From NCBI GenBank assembly GCA_947497245.1, contig CANMFO010000001.1, forward strand, positions 1,612,001 to 1,676,000: a DNA stretch of 64,000 bases, in the 5' to 3' direction. Under the pieces are notes generated by a model, which searched no databases, had not been told where the DNA came from, and saw only the letters and a program-made list of their open reading frames with translations. Below are positions 473 to 18,224 of the stretch, piece by piece (the stretch's first letter is position 1; the number at the start of each line of letters is the position of its first letter). This DNA comes from an uncultured Flavobacteriaceae bacterium (GTDB taxonomy: Bacteria > Bacteroidota > Bacteroidia > Flavobacteriales > Flavobacteriaceae). Made by a program: the position numbers and the translations under genes.

Positions 473-1483
473 TCAGCCTTTGATATAGGCCCCCGGCTCT
501 TTCTCAAAGCTCACCTTGCAGCCGTCACAGCAGAAATAGACCTTTTCGCCCCGGTATTCCACCACATGTTTGGGATTGGTCTTGGAGACGGGTACCTGGC
601 AGACCGGGTTGATGTAGTATTCCTCCGCAAACTGGTCTTCCATTGGGGTCGGGGCCTGCGTTTCCGAGGTGTCTGTCCAGGGCTGCTCCGGCCTACTCTC
701 CGTTGCATTGCCGTTCCTAAAATGGTCGATGACCTCGGCCAGGATGCTGATGGCCACCTCACTGGCCAGTTTGGCGTTGATGTCCAAACCTACCGGACTC
801 CGCAATTGGGCGATCCGTTCTTCGCCCAATCCTTCTTGGGTGAGATAGTTTTTGATGTCCCCCGCTTTCTTTTTGCTTGCTACAAAGCCCACGTACGGCA
901 CCGGGGTCTCCAGGGCCTTTTTGACAGAGAGGTCATCGTCTTCCCCTTGGGTGGTGACAATGATGTAAGTGTTGGAGAGGTTCTTAAAACCTGAGAAATC
1001 TACTTGGTCCGATACCGTATGGGCAGTGGGAAACATTTGGGCATCCACGGCATTGGCGAGAACCGTGACCTTAAAATCGGAGGCCACGGCCAGCGATGAC
1101 AGTTTGCGGGCAATGTTGCTCTTGCCCACCACGATGATCTCGGGCTGCGGGACCACAGGTTCGATCAATACTTCCAAGGTACCCTTACTTTGACAGGACA
1201 TAACATATTCTTTATAGTTAGCAGTTTCCCGTGTGCCCCCTTCCGGGGAAATACGGACCCTTCGATAGCGTTTCGACTTAATGACATTAATAGCCTCTTT
1301 GATCACAATGCCACGTACACAGCCACCGCCTACCCAACCGATCAGTTCGCCCGTATCGAGGACGATGGCCTTGTCGCCCACCTTGCCCGAACTGGGGGCG
1401 ATGCGATCGATCACCTGTGCAATGGCGAAATTGGATCCCTTGGCCAAATGTTCCTCTATTTTCAATGCCAGTTCGTTAAACAT
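473..1483 (-). CDS. coxF: XdhC/CoxF family maturation factor with C-terminal YHS domain
   Basis: This 336-residue protein is the last gene of the cox operon. Residues 1-110 form an XdhC_CoxI domain with the conserved GWVGGGCVRG loop (Cys55). Residues 112-255 form the Rossmann-like XdhC C-terminal domain. After a Ser/Glu/Pro-rich linker, residues 291-333 are a YHS/TRASH-type domain with NPVC (Cys295) and YFCCDGC (Cys318, 319, 322) followed by FEKEPGAY. XdhC-family proteins bind molybdenum cofactor and help its sulfuration and insertion into xanthine dehydrogenase-family enzymes; CoxF is the member that goes with CO dehydrogenase. YHS domains bind soft metals, so this copy may also handle copper for the Mo-Cu site, which is inference. 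Its ATG overlaps the end of coxE by 8 bases, suggesting coupled translation. The symbol is by position and family; CoxI is the closest alternative name. Confidence 0.85.
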   Translation of the reverse strand: MFNELALKIEEHLAKGSNFAIAQVIDRIAPSSGKVGDKAIVLDTGELIGWVGGGCVRGIVIKEAINVIKSKRYRRVRISPEGGTRETANYKEYVMSCQSKGTLEVLIEPVVPQPEIIVVGKSNIARKLSSLAVASDFKVTVLANAVDAQMFPTAHTVSDQVDFSGFKNLSNTYIIVTTQGEDDDLSVKKALETPVPYVGFVASKKKAGDIKNYLTQEGLGEERIAQLRSPVGLDINAKLASEVAISILAEVIDHFRNGNATESRPEQPWTDTSETQAPTPMEDQFAEEYYINPVCQVPVSKTNPKHVVEYRGEKVYFCCDGCKVSFEKEPGAYIKG

Positions 1484-2612
1484 CCATTAATACTTTTTCC
1501 AACTTTAATAGACTGTCCAGATTATGGGCCGATTCGAAGGCGTCTAGATGGGGCATCACGTTTACAATGCCCTTCTGGATGGGCCGGTAGCCCTTCATGC
1601 CCTTCAGCGGGTTCAGCCAGACCAGCGTTTTGCACCTTCTGCGAATGGTGCGGACCGCTTCGCGCAATTGGACGACACTGCCCGTTTCCAGGCCATCGCT
1701 CAGAATGACCACAATATGCTTTTGGCTCAGGAACTTGCTCCCGTAGACCGAGAGGAACTCTGTAAGCGATTCCCCGATCTTGGTACCGCTCGACCAGGAA
1801 TGTACCTCTTTCCCGATCTGCTTCAAGATCCGTTGCTCGTTGTTCGCCCTTAGCAAAGGGGTCACATGGGTCAGCTGTGTACTAAAGGTAAAAAACTCCA
1901 AGCTCTTAAAATACTTTTTCAGTACCAGTACATAGCGCAACAGGTAATAGCTATAGGTGTCCATGGAGCCGCTCACGTCCAGGATAAACACCACTTTGCG
2001 CTTTTCCTTCCGCTTTTTTTTATGGGCCAGGTCCAACAGCAGTCCCCCCTTATCAATGCCGTGGCGTACCGTCCTACGGATATCGATGGCGCCCTTGTTG
2101 GCGTTTTCGAGCCTTCTCTTAAAGCGCATGCTCATCTGATGGAACAGCTCCTCGGCCAATTCCTCCAGGCGTTCCCTATCGGTGACCTCGACCTTGGAAA
2201 AGTCCGTCATCCGCAAGCGGATGCTCTCGTTCGCCCCCACGGTCTGTTTGGCCTCTTGTTTTTGCTCTGGTGGCCTGGGTATCTGGAACTGGGCACCCAA
2301 AAAGATGACCGTAGCCGTATCGGGATCTTTTTTGGGTTGTTTGAGGGCCGTTTTCCGTTGTTCGAGCTTATCCTCATAATAGCGGCTCCAAAAACGGTCG
2401 AACATTTCATCGAAACGGTCAAAGTGTTCCTTACGCTTGCAAAAAATGGCCTTTAGGCTGTACTGGAACAGCTTCCTATCCAACAGGTAGCCCCGTTCGG
2501 CTATCTCAAAAGCGTCCCGGGTCTCTTGGGGCCCGAGCACAAACTGCCTTTCCCGACAATAAAAGGTAAAGTCGATCAGGCGCTCTTTGAATGTTTTGTT
2601 TACTTGGACCAC
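1476..2612 (-). CDS. coxE: CoxE-like VWA domain protein, CO dehydrogenase maturation
   Basis: A 378-residue protein of the CoxE/VWA family. The N-terminal 200 residues are charged and helical. The von Willebrand A domain starts with FILDVSGSMDTY, where Asp212, Ser214 and Ser216 form the MIDAS metal site, followed by SSGTKIGESL and VILSDGLETG. In CO-oxidising bacteria CoxE works with the AAA ATPase CoxD, a MoxR-type chaperone pair that remodels the apo-enzyme so that the Mo-S-Cu centre can be completed. The only usable start after the in-frame stop at 2637 is GTG at 2612, 24 bases after coxD. The gene overlaps the next one by 8 bases. Confidence 0.88.
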   Translation of the reverse strand: MVQVNKTFKERLIDFTFYCRERQFVLGPQETRDAFEIAERGYLLDRKLFQYSLKAIFCKRKEHFDRFDEMFDRFWSRYYEDKLEQRKTALKQPKKDPDTATVIFLGAQFQIPRPPEQKQEAKQTVGANESIRLRMTDFSKVEVTDRERLEELAEELFHQMSMRFKRRLENANKGAIDIRRTVRHGIDKGGLLLDLAHKKKRKEKRKVVFILDVSGSMDTYSYYLLRYVLVLKKYFKSLEFFTFSTQLTHVTPLLRANNEQRILKQIGKEVHSWSSGTKIGESLTEFLSVYGSKFLSQKHIVVILSDGLETGSVVQLREAVRTIRRRCKTLVWLNPLKGMKGYRPIQKGIVNVMPHLDAFESAHNLDSLLKLEKVLMDV

Positions 2613-2636: not shown

Positions 2637-3509
2637 TTAGGGTATGGGAACCAAAAACTCCTGTACCTTCTTGTTGCGCACAAACTCGATATCGTCCTTG
2701 TGCTTCAATACACTGCCGATGGTATTGTGCACCAACTCATCGGTAATATGGGCGGCGTTCATCAGCAAGAGCGTTTTGGCCCAATCCAACGATTCCGCGA
2801 TGCCCGGCGGCTTGTGCAGGCTCGACTTGCGCAGGTTGTGGATAAAGGTGACCACCTGGCTTGCCAACTGCTCATCGATATCCGGTAATTTCTTGGCAAT
2901 GATATCGATTTCCTTGGCCTTGGACGGAAAATCTACCCAATGGTAAAGGCAGCGCCTCCGCAGTGCATCGCTCAGTTCGCGGGTGCGGTTCGAGGTCAGG
3001 ACCACCATCGGTTTTGATACCGCCCGGATCGTGCCCAGTTCAGGGATGCTAATCTGGAAATCGGACAACAGCTCCAACAGATAGGCCTCAAATTCCTCAT
3101 CGGCCCGATCGATCTCATCGATCAGGAGCACCACCGGTTTTTCCGCGCTGATCGATTGCAGGAGCGGCCGCTTTAGGACGTAGTCCATGCCAAAGATCTT
3201 ATTCCCCAGGGCCTGTTTGTCCCGTTCCTGTTCAAAGAGCTTGATGTGCAACAACTGTTTTTGGTAGTTCCATTCGTAAATAGTGGTGTTTACGTCGAGC
3301 CCCTCATAACATTGCAAGCGAATCAAATGGGTATGGAGATGTGCCGCCAGGGTCTTGGCCAACACGGTCTTTCCCACCCCTGGGTTTCCTTCCAAAAGCA
3401 GGGGTTTCTCTAAATTTTTCAAGAGAAATACCGAAGTGGCCAGTTCCTCACTGAGGATATAGTCGTGCCCATAAAAATCCTTGATCAGTGCGTCGATTTC
3501 TTTGTTCAA
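2637..3509 (-). CDS. coxD: CoxD, MoxR-family AAA+ ATPase
   Basis: A 290-residue MoxR-type AAA+ ATPase, close to the usual CoxD length. Walker A is GNPGVGKT (41-48), Walker B is LLIDEID (128-134), and a sensor-1 region VVLTSNRTRELSDALRRRC follows with arginine fingers. In Oligotropha, CoxD is the chaperone needed to make the sulfurated, copper-loaded active site. Its position between coxG and coxE, with the VWA partner directly downstream, is the standard MoxR-VWA pairing. It acts in the cytoplasm. The ATG start is well placed, since upstream sequence is a 75-base spacer after coxG. Confidence 0.9.
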   Translation of the reverse strand: MNKEIDALIKDFYGHDYILSEELATSVFLLKNLEKPLLLEGNPGVGKTVLAKTLAAHLHTHLIRLQCYEGLDVNTTIYEWNYQKQLLHIKLFEQERDKQALGNKIFGMDYVLKRPLLQSISAEKPVVLLIDEIDRADEEFEAYLLELLSDFQISIPELGTIRAVSKPMVVLTSNRTRELSDALRRRCLYHWVDFPSKAKEIDIIAKKLPDIDEQLASQVVTFIHNLRKSSLHKPPGIAESLDWAKTLLLMNAAHITDELVHNTIGSVLKHKDDIEFVRNKKVQEFLVPIP

Positions 3510-3584: not shown

Positions 3585-4055
3585 CTATGCCGCCGCCTCG
3601 GCAGCTTCCAACTTTTTGGAGAAGTTGCTGACGAACTGTTTGAACAATTGGTTGGAGACGGTAGAAATCAACCGCGACCCGAACTGGGCGATCTTGCCAT
3701 TGACCGTAACATCCATAATGGCGTCCAACTTTACCCCACCCCCTTCACGCTCGTTCAGGTCGATGGTCATTTTCATTTCGGCATTTCCCTGGCCCTTGGC
3801 ATCCACACCGTTCCCAGTGAGGATTATTTTTCGCTTGTCGACATCGACCTCATCGTAATAGATATCGGCATCATACTTGACACCCATAGGGCCAAATTTC
3901 ATCCCGACCTTGCCCTTGTAGTGGTTGTCGCCGACCTTTTCGTCAATGGAAACGCCGGGCACGCAATCCATGATCTTTTCGGGATCAATGAGATGTTCCC
4001 AAACCAGTTCGGTGCCCTGAGGGACTTCAAAAGATTTATCCAATGTTGTTTTCAT
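3585..4055 (-). CDS. coxG: CoxG-like SRPBCC protein
   Basis: A 156-residue SRPBCC (START/Bet v1-like) protein with the CoxG hallmarks DPEKIMDCVPGVS near the N-terminus and GNAEMKMTIDL plus NGKIAQFGSRL in the second half. CoxG proteins link CO dehydrogenase to the membrane and quinone pool; the fold has a hydrophobic cavity. Many CoxG proteins carry a C-terminal linker and membrane helix, but this one ends soon after the last amphipathic helix at EAAEAAA, so any membrane contact must come from the domain itself. It sits between coxL and coxD in the operon, 67 bases after coxL. Confidence 0.87.
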   Translation of the reverse strand: MKTTLDKSFEVPQGTELVWEHLIDPEKIMDCVPGVSIDEKVGDNHYKGKVGMKFGPMGVKYDADIYYDEVDVDKRKIILTGNGVDAKGQGNAEMKMTIDLNEREGGGVKLDAIMDVTVNGKIAQFGSRLISTVSNQLFKQFVSNFSKKLEAAEAAA

Positions 4056-4122: not shown

Positions 4123-6480
4123 TTATGTATGTGCCTGTATCGCTTCCCACACTTTTGCAGGGGTGATCGGAATATCCAGATGTTCGATGCCCAAAGGGGA
4201 CAGGGCGTCGATAATGGCATTGGCGATGGCCGGTGGCGCCCCTACGGTCGGGGATTCGGCAACCCCTTTGGCCCCCAACGGATGGTGGGGGGATGGGGTG
4301 ATGGTATGTCCGGTTTCCCAATGGGGCGACTCCACGGCCGTGGGCACCAGATAATCCATCAAGGTGCCGTTCAGCACATTTCCCTCGTCGTCATATTCAA
4401 TGCCCTCGTACATGGCCGGGGCGATTCCTTGGGTGAGTCCGCCGTGTACCTGCCCTTCCACGATCATCGGATTGATGATGTTACCGCAGTCGTCGATGGC
4501 CACAAAACGCTTCACATCAATGGCACCGGTTTCCTGCTCCACCTCGACCACACAGATATACGCCCCATTGGGGAAGGTCAGGTTCGGTGGGTCGTAGTAG
4601 TGGGTGGCCTCAAAACCGGGTTCCATTCCCGGCGGAATGTTCGTATAGGCCGCAAAGGCTACATCCTGGATCGTCTTGGATTTTTCAGGGGCACCCTTTA
4701 CAAAGTATTTGCCCACTTCCCATTCGATATCCTCTTCACTCACTTCCAACAGATGGGCCGCGATCTTCTTGCCCTTGTCCTTCAGTTTCCGGGCCGCGAT
4801 GGCGGCAGCTGCTCCCGCGGTGGGGGTACTCCTACTCGCGTAGGTGCCCAGGCCGTAAGGAGCGGTGTCGGTATCGCCCTCTTCGATCTCAATATCGGTA
4901 TAGGGAATGCCGAGTTCTTCGGCCAAAATCTGTGCATAGGTGGTCTCATGCCCCTGGCCTTGCGATTTGGTCCCGAAACGGGCCATCGCCTTTCCAGTGG
5001 GGTGTACGCGTATCTCGGCACTGTCGAACATGGCGATGCCCAAAATATCAAAGTCCTTCGAGGGTCCGGCACCCACCACCTCCGTAAAGGTGCACAGGCC
5101 AATGCCCATCAATTTTCCCTCCTTGCGTTTTTCGGCCTGTTCCTTCTTATAATCGTCATAACCGACCATATCCATGGCCTTTTTCAGGGTTGCCTCGTAA
5201 TCCCCGCTGTCATAGCTCCACCCCAAGGGAGAATCATAGGGAAATTGTTCTTTTTTGATAAAGTTCTCCAAACGCAGCAGGGCCGGATCTTTATCGATCT
5301 TCGCGGCGAGCTTGTCCACCATCCGTTCGATGGCATGTACTGCTTCAGTGACCCGAAAGGAGCAGCGATAGGCCACGCCCCCTGGAGCCTTGTTGGTGTA
5401 GACCGCATCGAGTTCCGCAAAAGCATGCTCATAGTCGTACGAACCGGTGCAGATGGAAAACATGCCCGTAGGGTATTTTGAGGGATTCGCCGAGGAATCC
5501 GTATAGCCGTGATCGGCCAGGGTGGATACTTTAAATGCCTGGATCTTTCCATCCTTGGTAGCAGCCAGCTCACAATCCATATGATAGTCCCGGGCGAAAC
5601 CGTTGACCAAGTTCTCAGAGCGGTCCTCGATCCACTTCACGGGCTTTCCGATCAGGAAAGAGGCCGCAATCGCCACCACATAGGCGGGATAGACAGGCAC
5701 CTTTCCGCCAAAACCGCCCCCGATATCCGGGGAAATGATCCGTATTTTTTCTTCAGACAGTCCTACATGTCCCGCTACCAGGGCCACTACGGTACGAATG
5801 GCGTGGGGGGCCTGGGTGGTGAGGTAGACCAAAAGCTTTTGGGTATCCTTATCGTAAGACGCCACACAGCCGCAGGTTTCAATGGAAGCCACATGGATTC
5901 GTGGCAGGTAGATACGTTCCTTGACCACCACGTCGGCATTGGCAATGACCGCATCGGTCTTGGCGCGGTCTCCCCGCTCCCAGTGGTATATCTGGTTGTC
6001 CTTTTGGCCTTCCTTGTCCGGGCGCAGCAGGGGCGCGTCTTCGTCCAGGGCCTTATAGGGGTCCACAATGGCCTGCATAGGCTCATAATCGACCTCTACC
6101 GCCTCGGCACCGTCTACGGCGACATAGCGGTCGGTAGCGATTACGGCACACACCTCCTGCGATTGGTGCATCACCGTATCGGTGGGCAGTACCATCTGTG
6201 TATCCGAGAGCAAGGTGGGCATCCAGTGCAGGTTGTACTGGGCCAGGTCCTCTCCCGTAATAACGGCAAGTACCCCTGGAATGGCCAGGGCCTTATCTTT
6301 TTTGATGCTCTTGATCTTTGCATAGGCATATGGACTCCGCACCATTACCATGGTCAGCATGCCCGGCAATTTCACATCATCCACATAATTGCCCTTTCCG
6401 TGCAAAAAGCGGGCATCTTCTTTTCTTTTCACAGAGTGACCCATTCCGCCTACCTCCGCTGATGTTTTACATTTGAACAT
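4123..6480 (-). CDS. coxL: CoxL, form I aerobic CO dehydrogenase large subunit
   Basis: A 785-residue molybdenum hydroxylase large subunit. The active-site loop is VAYRCSFR (369-376) with Cys373, the residue that binds copper in the Mo-S-Cu centre. This is the form I signature (AYXCSFR); form II and xanthine dehydrogenases have other loops such as AYRGAGR. Other cofactor motifs are GGGFGGK (254-260), SQGQGHET in the middle of the C-terminal half, and GAKGVAESP with the likely catalytic Glu742. It oxidises CO to CO2 and passes two electrons to the Fe-S clusters of CoxS and FAD of CoxM. The chain is slightly shorter than the Oligotropha subunit (about 809). It is the third gene of the operon, 19 bases after coxS. 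The long open frame on the opposite strand here is a mirror artefact. Confidence 0.95.
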   Translation of the reverse strand: MFKCKTSAEVGGMGHSVKRKEDARFLHGKGNYVDDVKLPGMLTMVMVRSPYAYAKIKSIKKDKALAIPGVLAVITGEDLAQYNLHWMPTLLSDTQMVLPTDTVMHQSQEVCAVIATDRYVAVDGAEAVEVDYEPMQAIVDPYKALDEDAPLLRPDKEGQKDNQIYHWERGDRAKTDAVIANADVVVKERIYLPRIHVASIETCGCVASYDKDTQKLLVYLTTQAPHAIRTVVALVAGHVGLSEEKIRIISPDIGGGFGGKVPVYPAYVVAIAASFLIGKPVKWIEDRSENLVNGFARDYHMDCELAATKDGKIQAFKVSTLADHGYTDSSANPSKYPTGMFSICTGSYDYEHAFAELDAVYTNKAPGGVAYRCSFRVTEAVHAIERMVDKLAAKIDKDPALLRLENFIKKEQFPYDSPLGWSYDSGDYEATLKKAMDMVGYDDYKKEQAEKRKEGKLMGIGLCTFTEVVGAGPSKDFDILGIAMFDSAEIRVHPTGKAMARFGTKSQGQGHETTYAQILAEELGIPYTDIEIEEGDTDTAPYGLGTYASRSTPTAGAAAAIAARKLKDKGKKIAAHLLEVSEEDIEWEVGKYFVKGAPEKSKTIQDVAFAAYTNIPPGMEPGFEATHYYDPPNLTFPNGAYICVVEVEQETGAIDVKRFVAIDDCGNIINPMIVEGQVHGGLTQGIAPAMYEGIEYDDEGNVLNGTLMDYLVPTAVESPHWETGHTITPSPHHPLGAKGVAESPTVGAPPAIANAIIDALSPLGIEHLDIPITPAKVWEAIQAHT

Positions 6481-6499
6481 AATTTCTTTTTTAAGGAGG

Positions 6500-6985
6500 T
6501 TAAACGGTTTCCGATTGGTTCTGCATTTCCTTGGCCGCCTGCTGAACGGACTTTACAATGTTGTTGTATCCGGTACATCGGCAGAGGTTGCCCGAGATGC
6601 CCCAGCGAATTTCCTCCTCCGACGGGTCGGGATTGTTCTTCAACAGATCAAGAGACCGCATGATCATGCCCGGGGTACAGAATCCACAGTGCAGTCCATG
6701 CTGATCATGGAAAGCCTGCTGCAGGGGGTGATTGGTGCCTTCGGCGGCCACACCCTCTATGGTCGTGATCTCGGCACCATCGGCCCTAACGGCAAGGTAG
6801 GTGCATGATTTGACGGATTTCCCGTCCAGCAGAATGGTACAGGCCCCGCAATTGGAGGTATCGCAACCGATATGGGTTCCGGTAAGGTCCAGGTTCTCCC
6901 GAATGAAATGTACCAAAAGCAAGCGGGAATCCACTTCGGCGGTGACGCTTTCTCCGTTGATCGTAACTGTTATTTCATGTTTCAT
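6500..6985 (-). CDS. coxS: CoxS, CO dehydrogenase iron-sulfur small subunit
   Basis: A 161-residue protein with two [2Fe-2S] sites in the usual order. The plant-ferredoxin-type N-terminal domain has Cys41, Cys46, Cys49 and Cys61 ([10 protein letters not shown] then SC). The helical C-terminal domain has HCGFCTPGM (Cys100, Cys103) and NLCRCTGY (Cys135, Cys137). It carries electrons from the Mo centre in CoxL to FAD in CoxM. It is the second gene of the operon, 9 bases after coxM, giving the order M-S-L seen in classical cox clusters. Confidence 0.95.
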
Positions 6986-6994
6986 GGTATATTA

Positions 6995-7864
6995 TTATTG
7001 TTGGGCCCTTTCCAGAGCCTTGTTCAACATTCTTTTGGTAATGGTATTGACTATCGATCTTTTATAGGCTTCCGATCCCCTTAGGTCGGAAGAAGGCTCG
7101 CAGTCCTCGCCGGCCATGGTCCCCACTTGCTCGATCAGATCATCGGTTATTTTCTTCCCTCTGAGCAATTCCTCGCCCCTGTCCAGCCGCATGGGTACAG
7201 CGCTGACATTGGTCAGGCCTATCCCTATTTCCCGACAAACCCCGCTATCATCCAACTCTACATGTACAGCGACCCCCGCAGTGGCATAATCCCCAACTTT
7301 GCGTTCTACTTTGTGGTAAGCGCCCCCACTCCCCTTTTTGGTTTTGGGTACTTGGATTTCCACTAGGACATCGGAAGGTTCCAGGGCCGTCATATAGAAC
7401 CCATGGAAAAATTCGTCGATGGGAATGGATTTTTGTCCGTCCGTCCCTTCCGCGATTACCGTGGCCCGCATGGCGAGCATCAGCGCAGGTTGATCGTTCG
7501 CGGCATCGCCATGGGCGATATTCCCACCTATGGTGCCCACGTTCCGTACCGAAGGGTCGGCCGTTAATTTGATGGCATCCGAAAATATGGGGTAGTTTTC
7601 CCGGATCAGGGCGGAATGCTCCATTTCCGTTTGGGTGGTCAAGGCACCGATCTTGAGCAGGTCACCCTCCTCTTTGATATAGGAAAGTCCTTCGATCTTG
7701 CTGATATCGATAATATGTTCCGGAGTGGCGAACCTAAGTTTCATCATGGGGAGCAGACTATGTCCGCCCGACATATACTTGGCTTCTTCCCCATGGGTTT
7801 GCGACAACGCGATCGCATCTTTTACCGAGGTCGCCTTGTGATAGGTAAAATTAGCTGGAATCAT
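6995..7864 (-). CDS. coxM: CoxM, CO dehydrogenase FAD subunit
   Basis: A 289-residue FAD-binding subunit of the CO dehydrogenase/xanthine dehydrogenase medium-subunit family. The two flavin motifs are at the same places as in Oligotropha CoxM: SGGHS (32-36) followed by LLPMMKLR, and TIGGN (111-115). The C-terminal CO_deh_flav_C domain begins near residue 175. It takes electrons from CoxS and hands them to the respiratory chain. It is the first gene of the operon, with a promoter-like sequence 34-64 bases upstream of its ATG. Confidence 0.94.
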   Translation of the reverse strand: MIPANFTYHKATSVKDAIALSQTHGEEAKYMSGGHSLLPMMKLRFATPEHIIDISKIEGLSYIKEEGDLLKIGALTTQTEMEHSALIRENYPIFSDAIKLTADPSVRNVGTIGGNIAHGDAANDQPALMLAMRATVIAEGTDGQKSIPIDEFFHGFYMTALEPSDVLVEIQVPKTKKGSGGAYHKVERKVGDYATAGVAVHVELDDSGVCREIGIGLTNVSAVPMRLDRGEELLRGKKITDDLIEQVGTMAGEDCEPSSDLRGSEAYKRSIVNTITKRMLNKALERAQQ

Positions 7865-8055: not shown

Positions 8056-9237
8056 TTGAAAATGTACTCCCAACCCTATATGGATTACAATGCCACCACC
8101 CCTTGTGCCAAGGAGGTGATCGACGCGATGCTGCCCTATTTCCAGGAAGATTTCGGCAACCCGTCGAGCAGCCACCATCCCTACGGTTGGTTGGCGAAAA
8201 GTGCAGTGGAGGATGCGACCCATGAAATCGCAGGGACCTTGGGCATTTCTCCCAATAGCCTGATCTACACTTCAGGATCTACCGAAAGCATCAATATGAT
8301 CTTAAAGGGCGTTGTCCGAAAGTTCGGCGCCAAAGGGAACCACATCATCACTACCCGGGCAGAGCACAAAGCCGTTCTGGATACCTGCGCTTTTTTGGAG
8401 GAGGAAGGTTTTGAGGTCTCCTATTTGGGCGTGGATGCCAAGGGGCTCGTGGATACCCACGATTTGAAGGAAGCCCTGCGGCCCGATACGCTCTTGGTTT
8501 CCATAATGTACGCCAACAATGAGACCGGAGTGGTGCAACCCTTGGAGGAAATTGCGGAACTGACCCATGCCAACGGTTCACTGCTTTTTTCGGACACGAC
8601 ACAGGCACTGGGCAAGATGGCCCTGGACCCGGTTTTGGAACAGGTGGATTTTGCCTGCTTTTCGGCCCACAAAGTGTACGGCCCCAAGGGCATCGGATTG
8701 GTATATGTCAAGGACAATGAGGAGGGTGTAGCGCTGCCCAGTTTTATCCAAGGGGGTGGCCAACAGAAAGGTCAACGGGGCGGTACCATCAATACCCCTC
8801 TTATTGTTGGAATGGCCAAGGCCATCCAACTGGCCCAGGTCGATTTGGAAACGGAACAGTTGCGGCTCGAAACCTTGCGAAATCGGTTGGAAGCAGAACT
8901 GCTGGCCATTGAACGGACCATTTCCAACAGTAGAACGGCCCAACGTTTGCCAAACACGGCCCATATTTCCTTTCCCTATGTGGATGGCGCCAATTTGTTG
9001 ACCGCTTTGGGTCGGCAGATTGCCGTCTCGAACGGGTCGGCCTGTAATTCGGCTTCCGTGGAACCCTCCCATGTTCTGCTGGCCATGGGGGTGGAACGCA
9101 GTCTGGCCTATGCCTCCCTGCGCATGAGTCTTGGGCGGTACACCACCGATGGGGATATTGAAAAAGCTATCGAGATCATAGGTTCCGAGGTGGCAAGGCA
9201 GCGGGAGCGGAATATTCTTTGGGAGCGAAGAAGGTGA
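8056..9237 (+). CDS. Cysteine desulfurase (NifS/IscS family), next to cox operon
   Basis: A 393-residue class V aminotransferase-fold enzyme of the NifS/IscS type. It shows the N-terminal YNATTP motif, TSGSTESIN for PLP phosphate binding, His104 in RAEHKA, the PLP lysine in FSAHKVYGPKG (Lys206), and the catalytic cysteine in SNGSACNSASVEPS (Cys330). It removes sulfur from cysteine to form a persulfide. It is read divergently from coxM across a 191-base gap and lies between two XdhC genes, so a likely job is to supply the sulfido ligand for the Mo centre of CO dehydrogenase. That role is inference; a general Fe-S role is the alternative, as another desulfurase sits at 54.5 kb. A TTG-less TACCTTTA element lies about 20 bases upstream. 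Confidence 0.9.
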   Translation: MKMYSQPYMDYNATTPCAKEVIDAMLPYFQEDFGNPSSSHHPYGWLAKSAVEDATHEIAGTLGISPNSLIYTSGSTESINMILKGVVRKFGAKGNHIITTRAEHKAVLDTCAFLEEEGFEVSYLGVDAKGLVDTHDLKEALRPDTLLVSIMYANNETGVVQPLEEIAELTHANGSLLFSDTTQALGKMALDPVLEQVDFACFSAHKVYGPKGIGLVYVKDNEEGVALPSFIQGGGQQKGQRGGTINTPLIVGMAKAIQLAQVDLETEQLRLETLRNRLEAELLAIERTISNSRTAQRLPNTAHISFPYVDGANLLTALGRQIAVSNGSACNSASVEPSHVLLAMGVERSLAYASLRMSLGRYTTDGDIEKAIEIIGSEVARQRERNILWERRR

Positions 9238-11279: not shown

Positions 11280-12386
11280 TCAATCCCGATCATGAATGGG
11301 GCCGGTCTTGTCCCGCAGCATCCCGCCGGTATTGCCCGAAAACACACTTAAGACCTCCCCAAAAATACTGGTCGCGATCTCTTCTGGGGTGTTTGCCCCG
11401 ATTTCCAGGCCACAGGGGGCGAAAATGCGCTGGCGTTGCCCCTCCGAGAATTTGATGCCTTTGGATCTGAACTCCAGCATCATTTTGTCAAAACGTTTTC
11501 TGGGGCCCAAGGAAGCAATGTAGGGGGCTTCACTATTGATCAACTCCAACAGATTGGCAGCATCGGTCTTGTAGTCATGCGCCATCAAGATTATCGCGGT
11601 GCGCGTGTCGATTTTAGGGCGTGCCTCCATATCTTTCGGATAGATGTTGGCCACCGACCGTAGTTTTTCCTTCCTCAATTTTTGGACATTTCCGACCAAA
11701 CTCACTTCCCAGTCCAATACCTGGGCCATTTCCAGCATGGGGTACACATCGTAATTGTCCCCGTAAATGGCCAAGTGGAATTGGGGGGGTATCAATTCGA
11801 TAAAAACACTGGCCTTGGTCCCTTCCGATTCAAAATGATAAGTCCTTGATTTTTTGTTTTCCAACACCTCGGCAATCCTTCCCAATATAAAATCCCGAAA
11901 CCCTGCATGGGTGCAATCGTTCAATGTGGCGGTATCGGAATCAAAGTAAAAGCTTTTGCCCAGGGCAATGGATTCCATGTCCCCATCAAGGGCAGTAATG
12001 GTCGCAATGACGTGCTCTCCCCTTTCGGCCACGCATTTTTGCAACATGGCCATCATATCCGATTCTTCGGAAATGGGAGAGATCAGTACATCGATAATGC
12101 CATTACATCCCAGACCTATCCCGATCTCCTTTTCCTTGGAAGTATCATAGGTAACTATTGAAGGCTGTTGTTTTAAGATAGCAATCTGTGAGCGTTGCAG
12201 GGCGTCGCCTTCCAGACATCCGCCGCTTATCCCGCCTTCAAAAACACCGGATTCGAACACGATCATACGGGCCCCTTCCCTGCGGTACGAGGATTCCTCC
12301 ACCCGGACCACCTGGGCAATCGCGCATTGTTCCCCTGCATTTTTATAGGAATCGTAAAGTTGTATGATCGATTTTATTTCTTTCAT
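11280..12386 (-). CDS. XdhC family protein (second copy)
   Basis: A complete XdhC-family protein of 368 residues from the chosen start. The XdhC_CoxI domain carries SSYRREGARMIV and GGISGGCLEGD with the conserved cysteine, and the Rossmann-like C-terminal domain contains LAIYGDNYDVYP and APCGLEIGANTPEEIA. It probably binds Mo cofactor and helps sulfuration or delivery to a molybdenum hydroxylase. The frame is open 14 codons further upstream to an ATG at 12428, but family proteins start close to MKEIKSII, so the ATG at 12386 was chosen. It is read away from moaA. Unlike the copy in the cox operon it has no YHS domain, so the two may serve different steps. Confidence 0.88.
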   Translation of the reverse strand: MKEIKSIIQLYDSYKNAGEQCAIAQVVRVEESSYRREGARMIVFESGVFEGGISGGCLEGDALQRSQIAILKQQPSIVTYDTSKEKEIGIGLGCNGIIDVLISPISEESDMMAMLQKCVAERGEHVIATITALDGDMESIALGKSFYFDSDTATLNDCTHAGFRDFILGRIAEVLENKKSRTYHFESEGTKASVFIELIPPQFHLAIYGDNYDVYPMLEMAQVLDWEVSLVGNVQKLRKEKLRSVANIYPKDMEARPKIDTRTAIILMAHDYKTDAANLLELINSEAPYIASLGPRKRFDKMMLEFRSKGIKFSEGQRQRIFAPCGLEIGANTPEEIATSIFGEVLSVFSGNTGGMLRDKTGPIHDRD

Positions 12387-12457
12387 TGGAATTTTTGTTG
12401 CGAAAAACCGAATCCGACATTTCTGCATTTTTCAGTTTCCACGAAAATTGGGGTTCC

Positions 12458-12664: not shown

Positions 12665-13648
12665 ATGAAGGACTCATTCGACAGAACCATAGATTACGTG
12701 CGTATTGCCGTAACGGATCGGTGCAATCTCAGGTGTTTTTACTGCATGCCGGCGGAAGGGATTCCGTATGAACCCAAACAGCATTTGCTAAGTTATGAAG
12801 AGATTACCCGAGTGCTCCGTGTCCTGGGGGGACTTGGATTTCGAAAGGTCCGTTTTACCGGTGGTGAGCCCTTTTTGCGGAAAGATTTTATGCAGCTGTT
12901 GGAGAACACAGCGGGCCTGCCCGATTACGACTCCATCCATATTACCTCCAACGGAACGCTCCTGCAAAAACACATTCCCAGGCTGAAGCAACTCGGCATC
13001 ACCAAGATCAACCTCAGCATTGATTCGTTGGATCCGGAACGTTTTCATAAGATTACACGGCGGAACGACTTTGACAAAGTAATGCGGACCTTTGCCCTTT
13101 TGGTCGAAAACGGGTTTAAGATCAAGCTCAACGCGGTGATCATGCACGGTATCAACACCCAGGATATCATCCCCCTGGCCGAACTGGCCAAGACGCACCC
13201 GGTAGATGTCCGTTTTATTGAGGAGATGCCCTTTAACGGAGGTTACAAGGAAAATTTAAAGCTGTACAGGGCCAAAGACATCCACACCGACCTGAAAGCA
13301 CAGTACCCTGGCCTGGAAATGCTGCCCTCCGAACATGGCGATACGGCCGATTTGATCAAAGTGCCCGGCTACCAAGGAAATATTGGGGTCATTGCAGCTT
13401 TTTCCCGGACCTTTTGCCATACCTGTAACCGACTTCGGATTTCTTCGAAAGGGGAGATCAAGACCTGTCTGTACGATGGGGGTGTTTTCAATATAAGGGA
13501 CTACATGCGCTCGGGTGTGACCGATAAGGAACTGGCCAAAAAATTCCAAGAGTTGGTCAAACTCAAACCCAAAGACGGCTTTGCCGCCGAACAATCCAGA
13601 ACGAACACTACAACGCCCTTGGAAAGCATGAGCGTGATCGGAGGTTGA
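12665..13648 (+). CDS. moaA: MoaA, GTP 3',8-cyclase
   Basis: A 327-residue radical SAM enzyme for the first step of molybdopterin synthesis, GTP to 3',8-cyclo-GTP. The N-terminal [4Fe-4S] cluster motif is CNLRCFYC (Cys20, Cys24, Cys27), followed by FTGGEP for SAM. The C-terminal substrate-binding cluster is CHTCNRLR plus KTCLYDGG. The chain ends in the typical Gly-Gly tail (SVIGG), which is needed for GTP cleavage. It works with MoaC. It is the first gene of a plus-strand operon with moeA, one base apart. Confidence 0.95.
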   Translation: MKDSFDRTIDYVRIAVTDRCNLRCFYCMPAEGIPYEPKQHLLSYEEITRVLRVLGGLGFRKVRFTGGEPFLRKDFMQLLENTAGLPDYDSIHITSNGTLLQKHIPRLKQLGITKINLSIDSLDPERFHKITRRNDFDKVMRTFALLVENGFKIKLNAVIMHGINTQDIIPLAELAKTHPVDVRFIEEMPFNGGYKENLKLYRAKDIHTDLKAQYPGLEMLPSEHGDTADLIKVPGYQGNIGVIAAFSRTFCHTCNRLRISSKGEIKTCLYDGGVFNIRDYMRSGVTDKELAKKFQELVKLKPKDGFAAEQSRTNTTTPLESMSVIGG

Positions 13649-13649
13649 T

Positions 13650-14864
13650 ATGGACAATACCTTCATTACATATGAAAAGGCCCTATCGATCTTAGCCGAG
13701 CACAAAACCGATTTTCCCACTGAAATCCGAAACCTGGAGGACAGCATCGGTGCCTATTTGGCCGAAGATCTGGTCGCGGACCGGGATTTCCCACCTTTTG
13801 ACCGGGTTACGATGGATGGTATCGCCATCGCCTATGAAGCCTTTGAAAAAGGGCAAAGGGAATTTCCCATAGAAGCAGTTGCCGCCGCGGGCACGCCACA
13901 ACAGACCCTCGGGGATTCCCAAAACTGTATCGAGGTCATGACGGGGGCCATTATGCCCCATAAGGTGGATACGGTGATCCGGTATGAGGACCTGGAGATT
14001 TCCAATAGACGGGCAACCGTGCTTCCCGAAAGCCTGCAATGCAAACAAAATGTACATTTTAAGGGCATGGACATTTCCAAGGGAACGGTCATCGTGCCCC
14101 AGGGCGGACGACTTTCAAGTGCCGAGATCAATATTGCGGCGGCAGTGGGAAAGGCGGACTTGAAAGTCAAAAAAATGCCCAGGGTGATCATATTTTCCAC
14201 TGGGGACGAACTGGTACCCGTGGCCGAAAGCCCCGAGTTGCACCAAATCCGAAGATCCAACGTTTATGGGATTCAGGCTACTTTACTGGAATGGGGAATA
14301 CCGGCAGACCTACAACATCTGCCGGATCACAAGGACACGATGAACAGGATCATTGCAGAAGTGCTGTCCACCTATGACCTGCTTGTTTTTACCGGAGGAG
14401 TGTCCAAAGGAAAGTTCGACTACCTGCCCGACGTACTGGAAGCGCTGCATATCAAAAAACACTTTCATAAAATACAGCAACGGCCCGGAAAACCTTTTTG
14501 GTTCGGGACCAACAAGGGCGGAAAAAAAATATTTGCCCTTCCGGGAAATCCGGTTTCCTCTTTTGTTTGCGTGTACGTCTATCTGCGGTTTTGGTTGAAA
14601 AGATCCTTGGGAATAAAGGACGTTCCCATATTCGTTGAACTTAAAAACGATGTTGCCTTCCGGCCGGATCTGGTCTATTTTCTGGAGGCCAAATTGGAAA
14701 GCAGGGCCGATGGTACCCTGGTCGCAGATCCTGTAAAAGGAAATGGTTCGGGCGATTTTGTCAATTTGGTAAGGACCGATGGTTTTTTGGTGCTGCCGCA
14801 AAATAAGCGGGAATTTAAGCAGGGAGAAGTATATCCTTTTGTATCTTATAGGGCAAAACTATAG
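13650..14864 (+). CDS. moeA: MoeA, molybdopterin molybdenumtransferase
   Basis: A 404-residue MoeA with all domains: the N-terminal linker domain with AYLAEDLVADRDFPPFDRVTMDG, the MoCF-biosynthesis/MPT-binding domain with FTGGVSKGKFDYL, the LPGNPVSS loop, and the C-terminal beta domain. It inserts molybdate into adenylylated molybdopterin. The ATG lies one base after moaA, preceded by GGAGG at a good distance, so this is one of the few genes here with a clear Shine-Dalgarno-like sequence. A separate MogA/MoaB adenylyltransferase is not seen in the window. Confidence 0.94.
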   Translation: MDNTFITYEKALSILAEHKTDFPTEIRNLEDSIGAYLAEDLVADRDFPPFDRVTMDGIAIAYEAFEKGQREFPIEAVAAAGTPQQTLGDSQNCIEVMTGAIMPHKVDTVIRYEDLEISNRRATVLPESLQCKQNVHFKGMDISKGTVIVPQGGRLSSAEINIAAAVGKADLKVKKMPRVIIFSTGDELVPVAESPELHQIRRSNVYGIQATLLEWGIPADLQHLPDHKDTMNRIIAEVLSTYDLLVFTGGVSKGKFDYLPDVLEALHIKKHFHKIQQRPGKPFWFGTNKGGKKIFALPGNPVSSFVCVYVYLRFWLKRSLGIKDVPIFVELKNDVAFRPDLVYFLEAKLESRADGTLVADPVKGNGSGDFVNLVRTDGFLVLPQNKREFKQGEVYPFVSYRAKL

Positions 14865-15330: not shown

Positions 15331-16110
15331 TTAAATCGTCATTTGAAATCCGTTGATCAGCAACACCCGGATGCCCACCATAAGCACCAGAATGGCCGTA
15401 ATGATCTTAATGCCACTGCCCGTGAGCTTGCCCAGACTCAACCGAATGCCCATTTGGCCGCCGATGAACACCGCAATCACCAGACCTATGGCTTCCACCC
15501 AGGGCAGTTCAAAGGTGCCATTGGTCACTAGGCCACCGATACCCGAAATGGAGTTGACCAGGATAAAAAAACTGGCCAGCGCCGCTATTTTGATCGATTT
15601 GTCCCATTTCATATGGTTCAGAACAGGTGCCAGAAAGATCCCCCCTCCGATGCCCACCAAACCGGACAATAGGCCAATGCCCGCTCCGAGCAGGTAGGTG
15701 ACATATGGAGGATAATCCGTATTGACCGAATCCGATTTCTTGGGGTCAAATGTCTGAACGATCAAGGCCAATGCGGATACAATGAGGGAACCTCCCAGCA
15801 GCATAAAAAAGATATGTTCCTGTAATTTGAACCGTGCCCCGATAAAAGCCATGGGGATACTGGTCACGATAAAGGGGAGGAACTTCTTAAAATCGAGATG
15901 GCCACTTTTATAATAGAGATAGCTGCTGCCGGAAACCACCACCAGATTGCAGACCAGGGCCGTACTCCGAATGGCAAAAAAACTGGTGAACACCAAGGTC
16001 AAGAGGGCAAGGTAACTGGATCCGCCACCGAAGCCCACAGAAGAATACAGCGTGGCAATGACCAAAAAGCCGAGGAATAAAAATATAAGTTCCGGAACGG
16101 TTAGGAGCAC
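15331..16110 (-). CDS. TauE/SafE (TSUP) family transporter
   Basis: A 259-residue membrane protein of the TSUP family with two homologous halves, each with a conserved turn: YSSVGFGGGSSYLALL near the N-terminus and LVGIGGGIFLAPVL in the middle. About eight hydrophobic segments are seen. TSUP proteins export or import small anions such as sulfite, sulfoacetate or organosulfur compounds. It is the last gene of the moaD-E-C-mobA-moeB operon, overlapping moeB by 10 bases, which ties it to cofactor synthesis. It may move a sulfur or oxyanion species for this pathway. It converges on the CPLC membrane gene with a single base between the stops. Confidence 0.88.
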   Translation of the reverse strand: MLLTVPELIFLFLGFLVIATLYSSVGFGGGSSYLALLTLVFTSFFAIRSTALVCNLVVVSGSSYLYYKSGHLDFKKFLPFIVTSIPMAFIGARFKLQEHIFFMLLGGSLIVSALALIVQTFDPKKSDSVNTDYPPYVTYLLGAGIGLLSGLVGIGGGIFLAPVLNHMKWDKSIKIAALASFFILVNSISGIGGLVTNGTFELPWVEAIGLVIAVFIGGQMGIRLSLGKLTGSGIKIITAILVLMVGIRVLLINGFQMTI

Positions 16111-17174
16111 GTAGCGAGAAATTGGTTGACCCCACCCAATATACTATAAAATTTGGTTTCGCTGTATTGTGGTTGGAGTTTTAAGGCGGCCATATCGCTG
16201 CGCTTTCCAGACTGGCACAGCAAGTAGACCGATGCATCCAAATCGATTCCCCGAAGCGCCCCGTCCAACTCGTCCAAAGGAATATGAATCGTATTGGGAA
16301 GGTGATAGGCCTCATACTCCGCAGGGGTCCTGACATCTATGATTTGGGCATTCCCGCCCTTCTCCAACACCTCTTGAAGTGCATCAACGGTGATATTCGG
16401 CACCGTGGCACAGGAATCCTCCCAGCCATATGAATCTTGCAATCGGGTCACTTTTAAGTTGGTTGGCCGAAGGGGAAAACTAATTTTTTGATAGGACTGT
16501 CGCAAACCGTCGAAAAGCAATAGTCGGCCCGAAAGCAGCTCCCCCAACCCTGTAATGAGCTTAACGGTCTCCAAGGCCTGAAGGTTGCCGACAATTCCAG
16601 GAATGATTCCCAGTACCCCATGCTCATTGCAGTTGGGCACCTCGTTTTCCTTGGGCATGGTCGGGAACAGACAACGGTAGGTAGGTCCACCCTGGCAATT
16701 GAAGACGCTCACCTGCCCTTCATAGCCATGCAATGCCCCATATACAAAAGGTTTTTTCAAAATCACGCAGGCATCGTTGGTCAGGTAGCGGGTAGGGAAA
16801 TTATCGGAAGTGTCCACGACCACATCGTAAGCCCCTATGAGTTCCAAGGCGTTTTCCACGTTCAAGAACGTTTCATGGCCCCTTAACTCCGTATCTGGGT
16901 TTTGGGCTTTCAAGCGGTTCAGGGCCACAGAAACTTTGGATCGGCCCACATCGGCATCGCCATAAAGCACTTGTCGATGAAGGTTGGTAACGGAAACCTT
17001 GTCATTGTCCACAATCCCCAAGGTACCCACGCCCATGGCATTCAGGTAGGTCAGCACGGGCACGCCCAGGCCTCCGGCCCCGATCACCAAAACTTTGGCG
17101 TCGGCCAGTTTCTTTTGGCCCTCCGGACCAAACTCTTTTAAAATGGTCTGTCTGGTATATCGTGCCGAATTCAT
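16101..17174 (-). CDS. moeB: MoeB/ThiF-type adenylyltransferase with rhodanese domain
   Basis: A 357-residue E1-like enzyme. Residues 1-240 are the ThiF/MoeB domain with the ATP loop GAGGLG (32-37), DNDKVSVTNLHRQ, SDNFPTRYLTND and the conserved Cys182 in VPNCNEHGVLG. Residues about 262-357 are a rhodanese domain with IDVRTPAEYEAYHLP and the active-site loop CQSGKRS (Cys320). It adenylylates the MoaD C-terminus and can receive sulfur on the rhodanese domain, like MoeZ or MOCS3. Of the four zinc cysteines of E. coli MoeB, the first is replaced (TYRC) and the last pair is missing, so zinc binding is probably lost. It overlaps mobA by four bases (ATGA). Confidence 0.92.
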   Translation of the reverse strand: MNSARYTRQTILKEFGPEGQKKLADAKVLVIGAGGLGVPVLTYLNAMGVGTLGIVDNDKVSVTNLHRQVLYGDADVGRSKVSVALNRLKAQNPDTELRGHETFLNVENALELIGAYDVVVDTSDNFPTRYLTNDACVILKKPFVYGALHGYEGQVSVFNCQGGPTYRCLFPTMPKENEVPNCNEHGVLGIIPGIVGNLQALETVKLITGLGELLSGRLLLFDGLRQSYQKISFPLRPTNLKVTRLQDSYGWEDSCATVPNITVDALQEVLEKGGNAQIIDVRTPAEYEAYHLPNTIHIPLDELDGALRGIDLDASVYLLCQSGKRSDMAALKLQPQYSETKFYSILGGVNQFLATCS

Positions 17175-17767
17175 ACCACTGCCAATTTTATCAAAGCCTC
17201 CCTGTATTCCTCCTCAGAATTTGCATTCAAGAGTACATGCCCGTTTTTGGGAAAAACCAATCGGGTATTGTTGTTGATCAAAAATTTACGTGGACAGCTA
17301 CCATTTCCGCTTTCCAGGTATGCAATGGAGTCTGCAAAGGCATGGGGTTCCCATATGGCGCACAGAGGTTCTGGCAATGGGTTTTCCTTTAGGGCAAAGG
17401 CCGTGGACATTGCCTTGGGGTCCCGTGCGGTAATCAGTTCCCGCAAGGCGGGAAGGTCCATCAATGGAAGGTCACAGGCCAGTACCAGCCACGCTGCTTC
17501 CGGATGACTTTTATGGGCGGAAAGGAGTCCGTTATAGGGCCCCTTGAATTCATTGCGGTCCACGATGGCCTGCATTTCGGGGGGCAACCCGTCTTGTTGG
17601 TCCTCCCTGAGGCTTACGAAGGTCCGTTCACAGACCTGGCCCAATAGGCCGTACAAATATTCGCGCTGGGGAATGCCATGATAGGGAATCAGTCCCTTAT
17701 CCGTTCCCATGCGCGTACTTTTCCCCCCGGATAGCACCAATCCGTAAAGCTTAGCGATTGAAGTCAT
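17171..17767 (-). CDS. mobA: MobA-like molybdenum cofactor nucleotidyltransferase
   Basis: A 198-residue NTP transferase with the MobA N-terminal motif VLSGGKSTRMGTDKG and ACDLPLMDLPAL for metal binding. MobA-family enzymes attach GMP (or CMP in MocA) to Mo-molybdopterin. CO dehydrogenases use the cytosine form, so this protein could be the CTP-using variant; the sequence alone does not settle it. The frame is open further upstream, but the ATG at 17767, preceded by GGGAGGG, fits the family start. It overlaps moaC by 17 bases and moeB by four. Confidence 0.9.
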   Translation of the reverse strand: MTSIAKLYGLVLSGGKSTRMGTDKGLIPYHGIPQREYLYGLLGQVCERTFVSLREDQQDGLPPEMQAIVDRNEFKGPYNGLLSAHKSHPEAAWLVLACDLPLMDLPALRELITARDPKAMSTAFALKENPLPEPLCAIWEPHAFADSIAYLESGNGSCPRKFLINNNTRLVFPKNGHVLLNANSEEEYREALIKLAVV

Positions 17768-18224
17768 GTTTCCCTCCCGTTTTTTGTTCCAGTTGAATTT
17801 CAGAAATGGTAATGTCGTGCGAAAGCGCCTTGCACATATCGTAAACGGTAAGCGCACTCACTGAGACCCCGGTCAGGGCTTCCATTTCAACCCCTGTCTG
17901 TTCGTTGCACTTCACCCTGCAGACGATTTGCAGGGCATTGGGTATCGGTTCGATGTCAATCTGTATTTTTGACAAGTTCAGTTGATGGCAGAGCGGAACA
18001 AGTTCAGCCGTTTTCTTGACCGCTTGAATACCGGCAATCACTGCGGTTTGGACAATACTTCCCTTGGTTCCCAAAAAATCCTGTGAAGCCAGTTTGGCAA
18101 AAACATCGGGTGGAAAACGAACCTTCCCCGATGCCACGGCGGTCCGTACGGTAGGCCGTTTGTTCGATACATCCACCATGGATGCCTTCCCTGCCTCATC
18201 GATATGTGAAAGTTCCTTTGCCAT
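17751..18224 (-). CDS. moaC: MoaC, cyclic pyranopterin monophosphate synthase
   Basis: A 157-residue MoaC with the family motifs MVDVSNKRPTVRTA, KKTAELVPLCHQL and the GVEMEALTGVSVSALTVYDMCKA core with catalytic Lys and Asp residues. It converts the MoaA product into cyclic pyranopterin monophosphate. It is the third gene of the moaD-moaE-moaC-mobA-moeB-TSUP operon. Confidence 0.95.
   Translation of the reverse strand: MAKELSHIDEAGKASMVDVSNKRPTVRTAVASGKVRFPPDVFAKLASQDFLGTKGSIVQTAVIAGIQAVKKTAELVPLCHQLNLSKIQIDIEPIPNALQIVCRVKCNEQTGVEMEALTGVSVSALTVYDMCKALSHDITISEIQLEQKTGGKHDFNR

Follow-up and report, generated by a model that had tools for sequence, protein, structure and literature searches.

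A YHS domain on CoxF, a possible copper carrier in the form I carbon monoxide dehydrogenase operon of a flavobacterium

The window analysed here, a stretch of 64,000 nucleotides from an uncultured Flavobacteriaceae bacterium (GenBank assembly GCA_947497245.1, contig CANMFO010000001.1, positions 1,612,001 to 1,676,000), holds a seven-gene minus-strand operon, coxM-S-L-G-D-E-F, which runs from base 7864 down to 473 as judged by reading frames and Pfam domains. An earlier note on this DNA, made from its letters alone, had stopped at 4123; the operon goes on from there with coxG, coxD, coxE and coxF as far as 473. The last of these genes encodes, in one reading frame, an XdhC core followed by a YHS domain, and it is this putative metal-binding tail on CoxF, not the enzyme itself, that is new relative to the literature that we found, and that hints at a copper route. 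Taken as a whole, our best explanation, namely a form I carbon monoxide (CO) dehydrogenase operon, used for the oxidation of trace CO, in which the CoxF tail acts as copper carrier, has in our estimate a probability of about two in three (0.67).

A YHS or HMA tail on the XdhC core of CoxF

The gene and the domain in question are the following:

473..1483, minus strand: coxF, XdhC-family maturation protein with a C-terminal YHS domain (Pfam XdhC_CoxI, XdhC_C and YHS; member of the CoxF clade)
482..613, minus strand: YHS domain of CoxF, residues 291-334, with Asn292, Cys295, Cys318 and Cys322 (Pfam PF04945)

The tail scored 40.6 bits against PF04945, whose cut-off is 30.3. For comparison we used 140 loci with distinct CoxL; the representative loci exclude short or duplicate stretches (L001-L037, L095-L112 and L133-L139), and their 202 XdhC-family frames became 192 after removal of 10 with fewer than 150 residues. 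In a tree of these 192 cores the CoxF proteins, including that of the window, form one clade of 121 (support 98). Two hidden Markov models (HMMs), built from the CoxF tails themselves and hence narrow, found YHS in 103 of the 121 and, at that same terminus, a CopZ-like HMA domain in 6, the other 12 having neither, and found YHS or HMA in none of the 71 XdhC proteins that the same loci encode outside the clade. A separate Pfam count at E 0.001 gave 98 YHS and 6 HMA among the 121, five of the 103 falling under that threshold, and Pfam lists neither domain for the other 71 proteins. A CoxF-clade member was missing from the examined stretch in 19 of the 140 loci, several of which end at a contig or stretch border; this is otherwise for L211, L213, L214 and L216 of the Gemmatimonadota sample, where the 18 kb examined held no XdhC-family frame and CoxF may lie elsewhere.

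The two kinds of tail are distributed as follows, the phylum names of the samples being inferred labels. First, YHS is present in 42/42 CoxF of the main Bacteroidota set, 23/25 of Actinomycetota, 21/21 of Chloroflexota, 11/12 of Gemmatimonadota, 2/3 of Acidobacteriota, 2/2 of Marinimicrobia and 1/9 of Pseudomonadota, with one holder unplaced. Second, HMA is present in all five of the more distant members of the Bacteroidota sample and in one Rhodothermales. Third, a search of 395 Bacteroidota genomes with the window CoxF at E 1e-20 or better, a threshold blind to weaker fusions, matched 12 genomes, including all 8 that have form I CoxL; in these 8, three matches extend into YHS and five end before it, the latter being the HMA proteins, while the remaining four are weaker XdhC proteins (29-35% identity) whose C-termini have neither YHS nor HMA. 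Two singular cases were also recorded: the CoxF at L171:6804-7916 bears two tandem YHS domains, and that at L200:11334-12212, from the Acidobacteriota sample, has neither domain and ends near a Cys-Cys pair.

The putative metal ligands are well kept. The equivalents of Cys295, Cys318 and Cys322 occur in 103/103 YHS tails, behind linkers that vary widely across seven or more groups; the equivalent of residue 292 is Asp or Asn in 102/103 (Asn in the window); and Cys97 of the core, in the stretch C-x-S-x-G, occurs in 121/121 CoxF. The HMA tails read GMSC[AS]HC in five of the six and AMSCAHC in the other, and the L073 tail, which belongs to the Rhodothermales CoxF, has its best matches among CopZ chaperones and copper ATPases (1cpz, 2qif, 1k0v and 7xuk), with MerP and zinc-ATPase domains ranked lower. 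In a thinned tree, made by quick maximum likelihood on cores cut at residue 256 (103 rows: 92 drawn from the 121 CoxF, 11 from the 71 XdhC proteins outside the clade), the CoxF clade has support 92, the six HMA proteins form a clade with support 97, and their pairing with the Bacteroidota YHS proteins has support 81; the tail changed state at least 6 times on the CoxF part of this tree.

An AlphaFold model of CoxF is good over the core, middling to good over the tail (block means 74-88) and poor over the linker. A fold search with the whole protein matched 2we7/2we8 and 3on5, which we take to be XdhC-type, and further proteins at E above 0.001; no protein named as YHS was among the matches listed. 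Searched alone, the tail matched phenol hydroxylase chains weakly (E 0.0023). PMC2997495 had earlier pointed out that the closest relatives of CoxF are XdhC homologues from other CO dehydrogenase operons. A literature search that covered neither most subscription journals nor any of bioRxiv found no paper pairing the YHS domain with XdhC or carbon monoxide dehydrogenase, or coxF with YHS; the architecture may well be listed without comment in domain databases.

A form I CO dehydrogenase

The catalytic part of the operon consists of three genes:

6995..7864, minus strand: coxM, FAD-binding medium subunit (Pfam FAD_binding_5 and CO_deh_flav_C; GGHSL and TIGGN)
6500..6985, minus strand: coxS, small subunit with two [2Fe-2S] domains (Pfam Fer2_2 and Fer2; eight Cys)
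4123..6480, minus strand: coxL, form I molybdenum-copper (Mo-Cu) catalytic subunit of 785 residues (TIGR02416; AYRCSFR with Cys373; tree)

Judged by their sequences, CoxM, CoxS and CoxL almost certainly make up a form I aerobic Mo-Cu CO dehydrogenase. CoxL scored 1222.8 bits against TIGR02416 (curated cut-off 991.15), and every other NCBIfam model that it matched stayed under its own cut-off. The motif AYRCSFR occupies residues 370-376, with the Cys at 373, just as the earlier note had read it. Among solved structures, CoxL is closest to three CO dehydrogenase chains, 8uem, 1ffu and 1n5w, which we take to come from Mycobacterium smegmatis, Hydrogenophaga and Oligotropha, respectively; the motif aligns to AYACSFR in 8uem and to AYRCSFR in 1ffu. 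The eight Cys of CoxS lie at 41, 46, 49, 61, 100, 103, 135 and 137, and CoxM has GGHSL at 33-37 and TIGGN at 111-115.

The earlier note had also proposed placing CoxL among form I and form II sequences, with clustering among the latter as the result that would speak against it. In our tree of 175 CoxL, a single clade with support 100 takes up all 34 form II-type sequences, of which 31 have the form II loop motif and 3 do not; the window CoxL lies elsewhere, inside a flavobacterial form I clade of 44 that likewise has support 100. One partial form I CoxL, L148, bore a form II label in this tree, yet was placed among form I. Thus, the form I assignment holds, because the curated cut-off is passed, the active-site motif is present, the genes stand in the order M-S-L and the tree places CoxL accordingly. 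The active-site loop [AS]YxCSFR is present in all 140 distinct form I loci. In loci L142-L147 of the Pseudomonadota sample, form I CoxL reads SYRCSFR at this place, so that a filter demanding AYxCSFR would overlook them. The genome also has a second CoxL-like gene (L126, G000:C1:164740-167052), which reached 674 bits and passes neither the cut-off for CO dehydrogenase nor that for glyceraldehyde dehydrogenase.

A proposal for copper delivery

Three further genes of the operon enter into the proposal:

3585..4055, minus strand: coxG, COXG-domain protein, probable link to the quinone pool (Pfam COXG, 81.7 bits)
2637..3509, minus strand: coxD, AAA+ ATPase (Pfam AAA and AAA_5; P-loop GNPGVGKT)
1476..2612, minus strand: coxE, VWA protein (Pfam VWA_CoxE, 171.6 bits; DVSGS at residue 212)

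For CoxG, the quinone role is given in PMC13240472, citing Pelzmann 2014 and Kropp 2025; for Oligotropha coxD, a requirement in Mo sulfuration is given in PMC4240915. Our proposal is that CoxD sulfurates Mo, with a NifS encoded divergently from coxM as a possible sulfur source; that the YHS domain of CoxF binds copper via Cys295, Cys318 and Cys322; that this copper is then passed, perhaps via Cys97 of the core, to the sulfurated Mo site near Cys373 of CoxL; and that CoxG hands electrons to quinone. That one metal-type domain has been exchanged for another at the same place is the best indication of a metal-handling tail, and copper is favoured because it is the metal that sets CO dehydrogenase apart. 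In Oligotropha, moreover, coxE and coxF mutants have CO dehydrogenase without Cu, and CoxF has been proposed as copper carrier (PMC4240915). In M. phlei, a full-length cyclase with YHS is activated by copper and by no other metal tried, its catalytic domain alone shows no copper activation, and the likely ligands in YHS are one Asp and three Cys (PMC4626032). The stretch MCPSHGTM of Oligotropha CoxF was considered as a general copper site and dropped, its Met and His not being conserved in the CoxF clade.

Several observations weigh against copper carriage by the tail. First, the Oligotropha coxF mutant is also without CoxE protein, and the coxE mutant without CoxF (PMC4240915), so that the missing copper cannot be traced to CoxF by itself. 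Second, Oligotropha CoxF has 280 residues, with no YHS mentioned in PMC4240915, and 8 of the 9 CoxF of the Pseudomonadota set (8 of the 12 tail-less proteins) have neither domain; hence the tail is no general requirement for copper insertion. Outside Pseudomonadota, L149 and L200 are tail-less too, the CoxF of L205 stops where the tail domain would begin, and that of L166 is cut by a contig end. Third, PMC4626032 describes copper binding by the YHS of Cu-ATPases as not demonstrated and the YHS of a toluene-4-hydroxylase crystal as holding no metal, and HMA domains also carry Zn or Hg, as the matches of the L073 tail illustrate. Fourth, the six HMA proteins form one clade and so represent one exchange event, and the CoxL tree scatters the same six loci over three places; the YHS fusion may likewise have a single origin, in which case its 103 copies are not independent. 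Finally, linker residues 260-278 have model confidence (pLDDT) below 50, so the model gives no position for the tail. Two lines of argument were abandoned: the CoxL tree was dropped as support for a single HMA event, since it splits the six loci, the CoxF tree being the one that supports it; and a separate YHS or HMA protein in the loci of tail-less Pseudomonadota CoxF is unsupported, the two narrow tail HMMs having matched no other open reading frame of the representative loci.

With these points counted, sequence comparison leads us to lean, at somewhat better than even odds, towards a CoxF tail that carries copper to the Mo-Cu site; our estimate had been slightly higher before the additional lack of CoxE protein in the Oligotropha coxF mutant was taken into account. 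A broader version falls just short of even odds and is offered tentatively: in most sampled form I lineages outside Pseudomonadota, CoxF would be a two-part copper loader, with an XdhC core that recognises the Mo site and an exchangeable copper carrier (YHS or CopZ-like HMA), which Pseudomonadota lost or never had. That the phylum of the model organism in which CoxF was studied is the one without the carrier would explain why the carrier has gone unremarked.

The most serious competitor, which we consider unlikely, is that the YHS or HMA tail senses metal or docks the maturation complex, and thereby regulates or positions CoxF with no handover of copper. It agrees with the one YHS domain for which we found a biochemical test being a probable copper sensor that switches an enzyme, and no chaperone (PMC4626032), and with Oligotropha CoxF managing without a tail. 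However, the domain swapped in is CopZ-like, on a protein tied to copper insertion, and a pure docking module would not require three metal-ligand Cys in every one of the 103 tails. That the fusion is incidental, passed down from a single ancestor with no function of its own, is improbable: a single origin is conceivable and the tail was lost more than once, but its Cys are invariant behind widely differing linkers, L171 has two YHS copies, and the replacement is by a similar metal domain.

Probable CO oxidation by the host and distribution of form I CoxL

Returning to the operon as a whole, its gene content makes it highly probable that the host oxidises CO in vivo, and trace CO would most likely be a supplementary source of respiratory energy for this marine, probably Maribacter-like flavobacterium, as predicted in the earlier note. 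The 99.91% complete genome gave no match to the RuBisCO large subunit, so that CO would be a supplement and not the basis of Calvin-cycle growth. An alternative, to which we give little credence, is that the enzyme is form I by sequence but has another main substrate, or is rarely expressed in this lineage, with trace CO use being minor. CO uptake by the host is indeed a prediction from sequence; our literature search found no paper joining coxL, flavobacteria and Maribacter; and the 13 characterised species of marine CO oxidisers in an ocean survey all belong to Pseudomonadota (PMC13203968). Nevertheless, CoxL lies above the TIGR02416 cut-off, the active-site loop is retained throughout the 140 loci, and coxG, coxD, coxE and coxF are complete in 38/38 loci with CoxL at least 90% identical to that of the window and at least 3.7 kb downstream (44 loci reach this identity, 6 of them being too short downstream to judge). 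PMC12172471, consulted for Flavobacteriaceae, reports CO oxidation in Rhodobacteraceae and related families.

CoxL above the form I cut-off was found in 8/199 Flavobacteriaceae and 8/395 Bacteroidota genomes, and in the samples of Pseudomonadota (10/249), Actinomycetota (28/168), Chloroflexota (20/141), Acidobacteriota (3/99) and Gemmatimonadota (19/101), each phylum sample being centred on a genome chosen for having form I CoxL, which is included in the count. CoxL identities of 92-96% were seen in genomes labelled Maribacter, Robiginitalea, Eudoraea, Robertkochia and Pelagihabitans. Earlier publications already describe form I coxL or Mo-CO dehydrogenase in Bacteroidota: Cordero 2019 (PMC6794299), a survey of the ocean in mSphere 2026 (PMC13203968) and a marine survey from 2026 (PMC13240472). 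The earlier note had presented CO oxidation as less well known in Bacteroidota; its form I CoxL stands, whereas the hint of rarity was too strong, and we dropped rarity in view of the 8/199 Flavobacteriaceae genomes, the close relatives and the published cases. The flavobacterial form I enzyme is genuine but already known, and adds little by itself.

A cysteine desulfurase and molybdenum cofactor genes nearby

Beyond the coxM end of the operon lie a solo, divergent desulfurase gene and, within 10 kb, a second XdhC gene and four molybdenum cofactor genes (moaA, moeA-like, moeB-like and mobA-like):

8056..9237, plus strand: NifS/IscS-like cysteine desulfurase, divergent from coxM (NCBIfam IscS and NifS matches, below cut-offs)
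11280..12428, minus strand: second XdhC-family protein, without YHS or HMA (Pfam XdhC domains only; outside the CoxF clade)
12665..13648, plus strand: moaA, molybdenum cofactor synthesis (TIGR02666, 345.3 bits, cut-off 284.05)
13650..14864, plus strand: moeA-like gene (Pfam MoeA_N, MoCF_biosynth and MoeA_C)
16101..17174, minus strand: moeB-like gene, ThiF and rhodanese protein (Pfam ThiF and Rhodanese)
17171..17857, minus strand: MobA-like nucleotidyltransferase (Pfam NTP_transf_3)

The second XdhC gene served as an internal control for the CoxF tail. In 35 of the 36 flavobacterial loci whose sequence extends 3.2 kb or further upstream of coxL, the desulfurase adjoins coxM. It occurs with an identity of 61% or higher in 7/199 Flavobacteriaceae genomes, each of which is one of the 8 that have form I CoxL, and was not found in the eighth of these (G194); in G050 it lies on another contig, and two further matches, at 48% identity, are in genomes without form I CoxL. 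In Rhodobacter capsulatus, XdhC and the desulfurase NifS4 are paired in Mo sulfuration (PMC2997495). From its sequence and position, the window gene is a candidate for a dedicated sulfur donor to the Mo site.

Significance and comparison with known systems

The atmosphere's net annual loss of CO to aerobic CO oxidisers is about 250 Tg (PMC6794299). The Mo-S-Cu centre of CO dehydrogenase is described as unique in PMC4240915, where the copper deliverer is still a proposal and the source of sulfur is left open. A copper-type domain on CoxF, in whose place one lineage has a chaperone-type domain, offers a small separable piece with which to test copper delivery, and the conserved desulfurase gives an equivalent handle on the sulfur step.

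CoxMSL of Oligotropha carboxidovorans and its relatives share with the window the subunits, the M-S-L order, the AYRCSFR loop and the accessory genes coxD, coxE, coxF and coxG; they differ in that Oligotropha has D-E-F-G after coxL (PMC4240915) in place of G-D-E-F, and in the YHS tail on the window CoxF. Oligotropha CoxF itself has the same XdhC core with C-x-S-x-G, the same coxDEF grouping and the same proposed role as copper carrier, whereas of its MCPSHGTM only the Cys (121/121), Ser (96%) and Gly (121/121) are kept across the CoxF clade. The YHS of the M. phlei adenylyl cyclase is likewise C-terminal, with three Cys and an Asp at the ligand positions (Asn in the window CoxF), but it regulates the cyclase, and PMC4626032 does not mention CoxF. 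CopZ and other HMA chaperones share the GMSCxHC-type motif with the tails of the six HMA-bearing CoxF, in which, however, the domain is fused to an XdhC core and not free. Finally, XdhC and NifS4 of R. capsulatus resemble the window in pairing an XdhC-family protein with a cysteine desulfurase; the window proteins are a candidate pair, and sulfuration of CO dehydrogenase in Oligotropha, in contrast to the R. capsulatus pair, occurs on the folded enzyme (PMC4240915).

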